Below are positions 33,362 through 50,214 of a stretch of DNA of 64,000 nucleotides, piece by piece. Positions within the stretch are counted from its first letter, which is position 1. The number at the start of each line of letters is the position of its first letter. The translations under genes were made by a program, and so were the position numbers. The stretch lies in contig JAJFUB010000125.1 in assembly GCA_021372615.1 (NCBI GenBank), positions 1-64,000 on the forward strand. The letters run 5' to 3'. The stretch comes from a bacterium. Lineage in GTDB: Bacteria; Armatimonadota; Zipacnadia; Zipacnadales; UBA11051. The notes beneath the pieces are model-generated. The model worked only from the letters and a program-made list of their open reading frames with translations, was not told the origin of the DNA and searched no databases.

Positions 33362-33697
33362 CTACGTGACCTGGTCAGCCAGCGCCTCGGCCGCCACCCG
33401 CAACTCCGGAGCGTCGTGGGAGGCAGCTTGCCAGACTACATCAAGGTCCACGGCGAAGTACTGATGCACGAGGATATTGCGCATGCCGATGATCTGGCGC
33501 CACGGGATGTCCGGCATGCGCTGGCGGGCCCCCTCGCTCAGGGCGGCGGCCGCCTCGCCCAGAATCTGCAGATGGTGCCGCATCCACGTCTGCACCAGTT
33601 CGTCCCGCCGGAAACGCTCTTCGCCCAGCCGCGCATACCGGCCGATGTGGTCCGCAGCCTCGATGATGTCGAGGAGACGCTCGCGGTCGGACCTCAT
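33362..33697 (-). CDS. hepT: HepT-type HEPN-domain RNase toxin
   Basis: The 111-residue, mainly helical protein carries the HEPN RNase signature RX4HXY exactly, as RNILVHQY near residues 73-80, and the family blocks [11 protein letters not shown] and [16 protein letters not shown] toxins cut RNA and are neutralised by the partner MNT protein through AMPylation of the Tyr in this motif. It overlaps mntA by 4 bases. The layout is that of HepT/MntA modules common in bacteria and archaea; RNase activity here is inferred from the intact motif. Confidence 0.88.
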
Positions 33698-34005
33698 AGG
33701 GCGACCGCCTCTTGCAGCACGCGGTCGCGGATGCGCTCCCTCAGCCCCCCGGTCGTGACGACATCCACCTCGCAGCCCAGCAGGTCTTGCAGGTCCATGA
33801 GTAGACCGCCGAGGTCAAACAGAGAGCAGCCCTTGCGGGCGTCAACGAGGAAATCCACGTCACTGCCCGCAGCCGCCTCCCCGCGCGCGACCGAGCCAAA
33901 GAGCCGCACGTTGCTCACCTTGTACTCCTCGGCCAGCCGCAGTATTTCCTCCCGCCGGGCGCGGATCTGCGCGAGCGTCGGGGGACAGCCTGTTGTCTGA
34001 GCCAT
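33694..34005 (-). CDS. mntA: MntA-type nucleotidyltransferase antitoxin
   Basis: The 103-residue protein has the minimal nucleotidyltransferase motif GSX10DXD as [20 protein letters not shown] (near residues 37-55, given as the motif block) and a [14 protein letters not shown] segment that carries the third acidic residue. MntA proteins add AMP to the HepT toxin. It is the first gene of the pair and is not preceded by a strong ribosome site. The metal-binding residues are complete, so an active enzyme is expected. Confidence 0.88.
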
Positions 34006-47116: not shown

Positions 47117-47947
47117 CTAACTCGTCGTGTCTAGCCCCTGCACGACCTCATGCACCGCCTTCACCGCCGCCAGCAGCGCCGGCAGGTCGGCGAAGGGGAT
47201 CATGTTGGGGCCGTCGCACGGCGCCCGGTCCGGCTCGGGGTGCACTTCCAGGAACAGCCCGTCAATGCCCATGGCCGCCGCCGCCCGCGCCAGGCCTGCG
47301 GCGAACTCACGCTGGCCGCCCGAGGCCCCGCCCGCTCCGCCGGGGAGCTGCACGCTGTGCGTGGCATCGAAGACCACCGGCACGCCCAGCCCGCGCATGA
47401 TCGCCAGCCCGCGCATGTCCACCACCAGGTTGTGGTAGCCGAAGGTCGTCCCGCGCTCGGTGAGCATGACCCGTCGGTTGCCGGTAGACTGCACCTTGCC
47501 GATCGAGTGCCTCATGTCGTCGGGGGCCAGGAACTGGCCCTTCTTGATGTTGACCGGCAGCCCGGTCTCGCCGCACGCGACCAGCAGGTCGGTCTGGCGC
47601 GACAGGAAGGCCGGGATCTGGATGATGTCCAGCACCTGCGCGGCCGCCGCGACCTGTCCGGTCTCATGGACATCGGACAGCAGCAGCACGCCGGCGCGCG
47701 CCTTGACCTGCGCCAGCAGGTCCAGCCCCGCCTGCCAGCCCGGCCCGCGGGCCGAGGTCACGGAGGTCCGGTTGGCCTTGTCGTAGGAGGCCTTGAACAC
47801 ATACGGCAGCCCGGCCGCGGCCGCGAGGTCGCGCACCCGGCAGGCCATGTCGTAGGTGGCCTCCAGGTCCTCGATCAGGCAGGGCCCGGCGATGAGGACC
47901 AGGTCACCAGTGCCGAAGGTGATGGGGCCGACTGAAACTGGTGTCAT
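47117..47947 (-). CDS. kdsA: 3-deoxy-8-phosphooctulonate (Kdo-8-P) synthase
   Basis: KdsA condenses phosphoenolpyruvate with arabinose-5-phosphate. The 276-residue protein shows LIAGPCLIED (about residues 18-27), KASYDKANR (about 49-57), LLLSDVHE, QIPAFLSRQTDLL, NIKKGQFLAP and VVFDATHSVQLPGG. The Cys in AGPC together with the Asp in FDATHS is the signature of metal-dependent KdsA. Start ATG 47947 gives the normal length; an upstream GTG frame lacks family sequence. kdsB would be the expected neighbour but is separated from it by two foreign-looking genes. Confidence 0.96.
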   Translation of the reverse strand: MTPVSVGPITFGTGDLVLIAGPCLIEDLEATYDMACRVRDLAAAAGLPYVFKASYDKANRTSVTSARGPGWQAGLDLLAQVKARAGVLLLSDVHETGQVAAAAQVLDIIQIPAFLSRQTDLLVACGETGLPVNIKKGQFLAPDDMRHSIGKVQSTGNRRVMLTERGTTFGYHNLVVDMRGLAIMRGLGVPVVFDATHSVQLPGGAGGASGGQREFAAGLARAAAAMGIDGLFLEVHPEPDRAPCDGPNMIPFADLPALLAAVKAVHEVVQGLDTTS

Positions 47948-48007
47948 GGCGAACCCAGACGCCTCCAAGGTTATCGTTCTAGGCACGGCTGCGCTTCCGT
48001 CTATCTT

Positions 48008-49027
48008 CTACGGCTGCTTGCCACGAAGACGGGCAACAAGCCTGGGTAGCCGCCTCTGCACATCGAACGCGCGAGCCACTCCAGCATTCCCGGCTGGGGC
48101 CGTCTCCAGACGCTGAACAAGGTCGGGCGACACAGCCTGGATGGTATCCAGTATCTTGATCAACTCGTTGGCGTGGTAGTAGTCGTCCGCACTCTCAAAC
48201 CGCCGCACGAGCGCCGTTTGCATCTTCGTGCACACAGGAGTCAGCCTGCCGAGAGACAAGGACACAATGTCCGCGGACAGCTCGGCGGCACTCCTGTTGC
48301 CCGCGGGCAAGGCTTGGTACTTGCCGATCAGACCGTACGGGTCCTGCCCCACCTTCAGCGGGACGACCGGAACTCTGCGGCCGATCGCAGCCCCCACCTC
48401 CTGGTCCGTCCAATCGCTATCATGGAATGACAGCGTGAGCCATGCCGCAAGCATGTCCATGCTAAGCAGTGCTCGAAGAATCTCGCCTTGCCATTCCGCG
48501 GTAGGCGCAATGTCACGATGCGCGACGAAGCAGTATATGCCCAGACGCACGCAGGAGTCCTTTAGGTCAGTCACGGCGGCTCTGTCATCAGCCTTGTGGC
48601 TGACAAACATCCTGACAAACTCCGGCTCTTCTCCCCAGAGATCCGCATCTTGATCGCGAGGTCGGGGAGCGAGTACGCCGGCGGCAAGAGGCGATTCCGT
48701 GATCTCCAACTCGACTGCGGCGATGTACTCGCCCCTGATGCGCAGAACGTGGTTGACCCTCTCGCGAATCGTCTGCTCGAGACTGTCCAGTTGCTCCAGG
48801 CCCACAGCCATGTAGATCCCTGGCGGGACGAGGAGCCGGATAGAGTGACCGTGGTGTTGCTCCCAGTTCTCCTCGTAGAAATCGGTGTCCGCCATCACCT
48901 CGGCTTCCGAGTTGAGGAGCACATCGCGTACCTGGACGTCGCCCCTGCGGTCAGCATCTGCCGCGACGACTCCGAGCAGCTTGCCGACCATGGCCGGTGC
49001 TCTGAACTGCCTCTCTTCCTCAGGCAC
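48008..49027 (-). CDS. TIR-domain protein, probable defence NADase-like
   Basis: The 339-residue protein has a TIR domain at about 135-245: RMFVSHKADDRAAV, IYCFVAHRDIAPTAEWQGEI with the conserved Glu after Trp that catalyses NAD cleavage in this fold (about 180), and LSFHDSDWTDQEVGAAIGR. Residues 1-130 and the C-terminal 90 match no family recognised by eye and could sense a trigger. It starts at GTG 49027; an ATG at 48991 is an alternative. Base composition is visibly lower in G+C than the flanking kds genes. Antiphage TIR proteins have this layout. NADase activity is inferred. Confidence 0.8.
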   Translation of the reverse strand: MPEEERQFRAPAMVGKLLGVVAADADRRGDVQVRDVLLNSEAEVMADTDFYEENWEQHHGHSIRLLVPPGIYMAVGLEQLDSLEQTIRERVNHVLRIRGEYIAAVELEITESPLAAGVLAPRPRDQDADLWGEEPEFVRMFVSHKADDRAAVTDLKDSCVRLGIYCFVAHRDIAPTAEWQGEILRALLSMDMLAAWLTLSFHDSDWTDQEVGAAIGRRVPVVPLKVGQDPYGLIGKYQALPAGNRSAAELSADIVSLSLGRLTPVCTKMQTALVRRFESADDYYHANELIKILDTIQAVSPDLVQRLETAPAGNAGVARAFDVQRRLPRLVARLRGKQP

Positions 49028-49077
49028 TGCCGCGTGACCCCCTTACGCCATCACCCGTCTAGCCCAGCATCGTGAAG

Positions 49078-49425
49078 CTACTGCCAAGTGGCAACAGGTA
49101 GTCTCTCACCTGCTCGGTCATAGATGACCTCCCGATGTCGCTCGACGCTTCGCCAGAAGTACGGGTTCCCCTCGCCGGGGGGCCTGGCGCTGACCAGATC
49201 CACTTTGAGACCCAGCAGCCCCTCCAGCGCGAACAGGAGGCCGAGATAGGCTTCGCCTCGCACGAGCGGGGCGACATTCTCGAACTCCACGACGAAATCC
49301 ACATCGCTCTCGCCTTCCCGGAAGCGCCCGTCAGCGGCCGAGCCGAACACCTCCAGGCGCTGCACGTGGTGCTGCTCGCACAGCTCGCGTATCCGGTCCA
49401 GGTTGTCTCGGATCAGGTCAATCAT
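49078..49425 (-). CDS. Minimal nucleotidyltransferase (MNT) domain protein, orphan
   Basis: The 115-residue protein has the nucleotidyltransferase motif FGSAADGRFREGESDVDFVV (about residues 32-51) and a GLKVDLVSARP block carrying the third acidic position. It looks like a MntA-type antitoxin, but no HEPN partner is adjacent; its neighbours are the TIR gene and kdsB. ATG 49425 is chosen over GTG 49434. The C-terminal tail REVIYDRAGERLPVATWQ is unusual. A TIR-plus-MNT pairing or a remnant of a TA module are both possible. Confidence 0.82.
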   Translation of the reverse strand: MIDLIRDNLDRIRELCEQHHVQRLEVFGSAADGRFREGESDVDFVVEFENVAPLVRGEAYLGLLFALEGLLGLKVDLVSARPPGEGNPYFWRSVERHREVIYDRAGERLPVATWQ

Positions 49426-49434
49426 CGGCCTCAC

Positions 49435-50214
49435 CTACTCCCCGGCCATCATCCCCCGCACCCGCTCCAGGTCCTCCGGCGTGTCCACGCCGATGGGCGA
49501 ATAGTCCACCGGCACCACGCGGATCGGGCAGCCGTTCTCCAGCGCCCGGAGCTGCTCGAGGCTCTCGGTGATCTCCAGCGGCGTCCGCGGCAGCGCCGCC
49601 ATCCACAGCAGCGTCTCTTTGGTGTACACGTACAGCCCGATGTGCTTGAGCGGGTGCAGGCCCGACTTGGGATGCACGCGCGGCGCCGCCTCGTCCAGTG
49701 TGACGCCCGGGTCGAGGCGGAAGTACGGAATCGGGCACCGCGAGAAGTATAGCGCGAAGCCCCGCTGGTCTACCACTACTTTGACCGCCGAGGGTTCGAG
49801 GTGTTCCTCCAGGGCAGTGATCGGCGTGGCGATCGTGCCGAGCCGCAGGCCCGCCTCGCTCAGGAACGGCTCGATGGCGGCGTCAATGATGTCCGGCCGC
49901 AGCAGGGGCTCGTCGCCCTGCAGGTTGACGATCAGGTCACACTCCGTCTGCCGGGCGACCTCGGCCAGCCGGTCGGTCCCGGAGGCGTGGTCGGCGGAGG
50001 TCATCACCGCGCGGCCGCCATAGCTCTCGACGGCGGCCCGCACCTGTTCGCTGTCCGTGGCGACGAGCACCTCGGACAGGTGTCGGGACTGGCGGGCCCG
50101 CTCGACCACGTGCTGGACCATCGGCTTGCCGCCGATGTCCAGCAGGACCTTCCCGGGCAGACGAGTGGAGGCCAGGCGGGCCGGGATCATGCCGACGATG
50201 CGGGGTGCGGCCAT
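49435..50214 (-). CDS. kdsB: CMP-Kdo synthetase
   Basis: KdsB activates Kdo as CMP-Kdo for lipopolysaccharide inner core. The 259-residue product starts at ATG 50214 (MAAPRIVGMIPARLASTRLPGKVL) with AGGA 7 bases upstream. Further blocks are VLVATDSEQV, MTSADHASGTDRLAEV, IVNLQGDEPLL and KHIGLYVYTKETLL. Length and motifs are complete. The gene follows mreD by 22 bases. Its separation from kdsA by the TIR/MNT pair is the striking feature. Confidence 0.97.
   Translation of the reverse strand: MAAPRIVGMIPARLASTRLPGKVLLDIGGKPMVQHVVERARQSRHLSEVLVATDSEQVRAAVESYGGRAVMTSADHASGTDRLAEVARQTECDLIVNLQGDEPLLRPDIIDAAIEPFLSEAGLRLGTIATPITALEEHLEPSAVKVVVDQRGFALYFSRCPIPYFRLDPGVTLDEAAPRVHPKSGLHPLKHIGLYVYTKETLLWMAALPRTPLEITESLEQLRALENGCPIRVVPVDYSPIGVDTPEDLERVRGMMAGE

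Follow-up and report, generated by a model that had tools for sequence, protein, structure and literature searches.

We consider it likely that the two genes lodged between kdsB and kdsA in the window (the whole 64,000-nucleotide stretch of DNA that was analysed) are an orphan antitoxin of the MntA type, left over from an MntA-HepT module, and an independent, solitary TIR-domain effector, rather than a new two-gene system; their pairing is most likely accidental. The original prediction had read them as a defence module transferred into the operon, in which the minimal nucleotidyltransferase (MNT) restrains the TIR protein. The transfer stands, as both genes are foreign and the TIR protein, which keeps its Glu, could plausibly act in defence. 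The restrained pair does not, given that it fails to recur and that HepT is the better-supported partner of the MNT protein.

On the minus strand the gene order reads mreB-mreC-mreD-kdsB-MNT-TIR-kdsA-kdsD (Table 1), so that kdsD-kdsA, the TIR and MNT genes and kdsB-mreDCB do lie on one strand as had been described. The start given for the feature, 47948, falls inside kdsA, and the TIR gene actually ends at 48008. The kdsB stop is followed directly by the MNT start codon, without a spacer, a gap of 50 nt separates the MNT stop from the TIR start in the same orientation, and approximately 21 nt lie between TIR and kdsA. A plausible ribosome-binding site, AAGGGGG, is located about 10 nt 5' of the GTG start of TIR, and MNT and TIR are probably co-transcribed.

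Table 1. Features at the kdsB-kdsA junction, in window coordinates
Feature	Position	Strand	Evidence and remarks
kdsB (CMP-KDO synthetase)	49435..50214	-	Pfam CTP_transf_3, E 5e-54; flank upstream of insertion
MntA-like minimal nucleotidyltransferase (MNT), intact ORF	49078..49434	-	Pfam NTP_transf_2, motif GSX11DXD, HepT-paired relatives
Presumed HepT-start relic, other frame, overlapping MNT 3' end	49093..49119	-	Homologous ATG position and 9-mer score
TIR protein, 339 aa, intact	48008..49027	-	Pfam TIR_2, alignments A1 and A2, AlphaFold2, PDB fold matches
kdsA (KDO-8-phosphate synthase)	47117..47986	-	Pfam DAHP_synth_1, E 2e-65; flank downstream of insertion

A kdsB orthologue was detected in 58 of the 61 related genomes. 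At all 29 other Armatimonadota loci compared (L046-L074, window excluded) kdsA follows kdsB with nothing in between, among them the locus of the nearest relative (G001), whose kdsB is 81% identical. MNT and TIR therefore represent an insertion specific to the lineage or genome of the window. At the insertion junctions no convincing target duplication was found, only short, chance-like repeats. The foreign character of both genes was confirmed by base composition and codon use. GC3 is 0.90-0.93 in kdsA, kdsB, kdsD and mreB-D, 0.78 in MNT and 0.73 in TIR, which bears out the lower G+C content claimed for the TIR gene, and the codon score falls from approximately 0.5 in the kds and mre genes to 0.17 in MNT and -0.13 in TIR. 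Both genes thus differ from the kds genes, with which equal G+C and codon use had been named as grounds for refutation, and TIR departs further than MNT on both measures. We count the difference between the two codon scores in favour of separate origins.

The MNT product matches Pfam NTP_transf_2 (46.3 bits, above the cut-off) and PADLOC PDC-S09 (88.5 bits), and it matches the NCBIfam MntA antitoxin profile below that profile's cut-off. It shares the NTP_transf_2 domain and a GS...DXD motif with the antitoxin of the type VII MntA-HepT system, in which MntA adds AMP to the Tyr within the RX4HXY motif of HepT (PMC7641770). The motif is spaced GSX11DXD instead of the GSX10DXD expected for MntA, a spacing also found in HepT-paired relatives with an intact HepT, e.g., L013. 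The best relatives in the class are 35-52% identical to it and are situated 5' of a DUF86/HepT gene encoding RX4HXY, the ATG of which overlaps the 3' end of MNT; at 9 of 14 such loci HepT is intact and overlapping (RX4HXY, Pfam HepT-like). Four further MNT homologues were found in the window's genome, every one of them with an adjoining HEPN gene. One of the four belongs to a complete MntA-HepT module elsewhere in the window itself, on the minus strand at 33362-34005 (MNT part 33694-34005). MNT-HEPN modules inside biosynthetic operons have been documented, as in the Thermus lysine operon, and solo antitoxins are frequent (PMC2701414).

At the window locus, unlike in these modules, an adjacent HepT/HEPN toxin with RX4HXY is absent. 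What appears to be left is the codon series ATG ACC GAG CAG GTG AGA GAC TAC CTG (MTEQVRDYL), after which similarity to HepT ends and the TIR gene comes next. Its ATG occupies the position homologous to the HepT starts of the relatives (TATG within a conserved Tyr codon). As 0.64% of 17,311 ATG-started 9-mers also score as HepT-like, the assignment of the relic rests on score and position together, and with only about 9 codons to go by the statistic is modest. The 21 nt that separate TIR from kdsA contain no recognisable remnant of the HepT 3' end. With HepT reduced to this stub the module is incomplete, which makes the MNT protein an orphan antitoxin.

Loss of HepT is not confined to the window. 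At 5 of the 14 MNT-relative loci (L008, L010, L015, L016 and L019, viewed in the larger stretches L121-L125) the gene is cut after approximately 14-20 codons. The cut points cluster just past the first HepT helix, and MNT is intact at these loci. Two sister genomes also have an MNT module between two genes identified by eye, from their sequence, as nuoD and nuoH. In one (G020, L128) HepT is intact beside MNT; in the other (G023, L122) it breaks off after about 17 codons, and other ORFs come next. Such truncation within the first 20 codons, and the filling of the HepT place in G023, could mean that effectors other than HepT replace it just past its 5' end in MNT operons, with MNT retained for some general reason and TIR as one case of such an exchange. 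We regard this as unlikely: the ORFs in G023 have no Pfam match, and none of the remaining cut loci continues into a toxin gene, what follows being non-coding sequence, a DUF58-like gene or genes on the opposite strand. Traced to the flanks of the cut loci, toxin exchange thus found little support.

The TIR protein consists of an N-terminal alpha/beta domain (residues ~9-110), the TIR domain (~138-240) and C-terminal helices (~247-336). Pfam TIR_2 matches residues 141-238 with 41.5 bits (cut-off 28), and E182, the TIR Glu predicted in the AEWQGEI segment, is invariant across all aligned relatives (alignments A1 and A2). An AlphaFold2 model shows the same three parts with a mean pLDDT of 79, and its Foldseek matches in the PDB are almost all TIR domains. 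The protein thus possesses both the fold and the catalytic Glu by which TIR-domain NADases are recognised, and it is probably an NAD-consuming effector by analogy with characterised enzymes. It resembles the stand-alone TIR NAD+ hydrolase AbTir (PDB 7uxu, 8g83) in its fold (TM 0.72 to 7uxu over target length) and in its TIR Glu, but differs from it in the additional N-terminal and C-terminal domains. These remain unassigned, as originally reported, with no Pfam match in any of 8 family members; outside the TIR domain, none of the PDB fold matches was convincing. The N-terminal domain (with a motif like YDNWNGGTYG) recurs on a DUF559-like protein encoded by a plasmid from Burkholderia (L129:3962-4735; hhalign probability 97), whose DUF559 match is below the cut-off; judging from this similarity, it may be a conflict-system module shared with a putative endonuclease. 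Thoeris was considered and rejected. The TIR domain has only distant matches to its profiles (PADLOC ThsB, E 0.03; NCBIfam ThcB4, 31 bits with a cut-off of 220), the flanking domains differ from those of ThsB, and the neighbours are MNT and kdsA, with no ThsA (SIR2-SLOG) beside the gene.

The adjacency of MNT and TIR on one strand, their intact ORFs and their shared foreign composition would fit a true two-gene module, in which the MNT protein AMPylates and silences the TIR protein until infection releases it. Their co-orientation, probable co-transcription and intact ORFs could also reflect a recent functional partnership. We consider such a module highly improbable. The predicted recurrence of the pair was not seen at any other locus examined: each gene is found without the other and among unrelated neighbours, and their families have separate histories. 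A profile scan detected no MNT or HEPN ORF in 25 loci with TIR relatives (~20 distinct; flanks scanned usually ~5 kb either way, shorter where some contigs end), nor does a TIR gene lie beside any MNT relative examined. Moreover, the MNT protein already has a known partner family in HepT. The TIR protein has no RX4HXY, the motif that MntA targets in HepT, and the family alignment shows no conservation of its tyrosines 283-284. AMPylation of TIR by MNT was rejected on the grounds that the pair is not recurrent and RX4HXY is absent. In line with the earlier statement that no TIR-MNT pairing is known, our literature search, partial in its coverage, returned no paper on such pairs.

Relatives of the TIR protein, most of them full-length, are found in other Armatimonadota, other bacteria, an archaeon, plasmids and contigs classed as viral; a scan of viral contigs with the L031 protein found no relatives. 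Their genes stand alone, among metabolic neighbours, on plasmids or in restriction-modification loci. Five are within type I restriction-modification loci, in three cases clearly between hsdS and hsdR: hsdM-hsdS-FRG-TIR-hsdR (L088:716-9209), hsdM-hsdS-Mrr_cat-TIR-hsdR (L095:3360-11494) and hsdM followed by hsdS-TIR, with hsdR further along (L031:299-12436). The other two fit more loosely, with hsdM, TIR, a HipA-like kinase and an ORF resembling the start of hsdR (L099:1-7141) and with TIR, a SIR2 gene, a helicase and an hsdR-like fragment (L100:1-6286). We called hsdR in L099 and L100, hsdS in L088 and hsdM in L095 by eye, and the remaining hsd genes from Pfam. An extra effector-like gene (FRG, Mrr_cat, HipA-like or SIR2) is often present in these loci.

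This placement recalls the PrrC/RloC-like effectors that lie inside type I restriction-modification operons (PMC3710099), with a TIR domain in place of the HEPN nuclease. It is tempting to speculate, though only tentatively, that the TIR proteins form an undescribed restriction-modification-linked effector family (the N-terminal domain shared with the DUF559-like protein, TIR and C-terminal helices) that recurs in type I hsd operons, perhaps as a back-up defence that is set free once the restriction enzyme has been blocked. Control of the hsd-embedded relatives by the restriction enzyme would follow the precedent of PrrC (PMC3710099). The window copy, which is not among hsdM, hsdS and hsdR, would be a solitary offshoot. 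In the partial literature covered, no paper described TIR genes within hsd operons.

One relative, the TIR gene of G037 (L033:5498-6985), carries an in-frame TAG. Ahead of it lies a short ORF containing a tandem duplication that resembles the N terminus of a restriction-modification protein. The TAG, together with the near-complete loss of HepT at the window locus, could indicate that MNT and TIR are non-functional passengers in decay, but the window ORFs are intact, retain their catalytic motifs and include a plausible ribosome-binding site before TIR, and we judge decay very unlikely.

Under the preferred reading of an orphan antitoxin beside an independent effector, an MntA-HepT module would have entered the kdsB-kdsA junction and lost most of its toxin gene, with the MntA-type antitoxin surviving. 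TIR, a presumed mobile single-gene effector, would now occupy the place of HepT. The TIR protein most likely acts alone, its N-terminal domain and perhaps also its C-terminal helices serving to sense or assemble, and the TIR domain would then hydrolyse or cyclise NAD+ with E182 as the catalytic residue. From established TIR biochemistry, we infer a putative role in phage or plasmid defence by abortive infection. The MNT protein most likely has no part in TIR control.

Altogether, the analysis removes a false lead, the control of TIR by AMPylation, and the locus would provide a clean case of a toxin-antitoxin module that enters a housekeeping operon, loses its toxin and leaves its antitoxin behind. 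The TIR family is worth following, since its members recur in type I restriction-modification operons.
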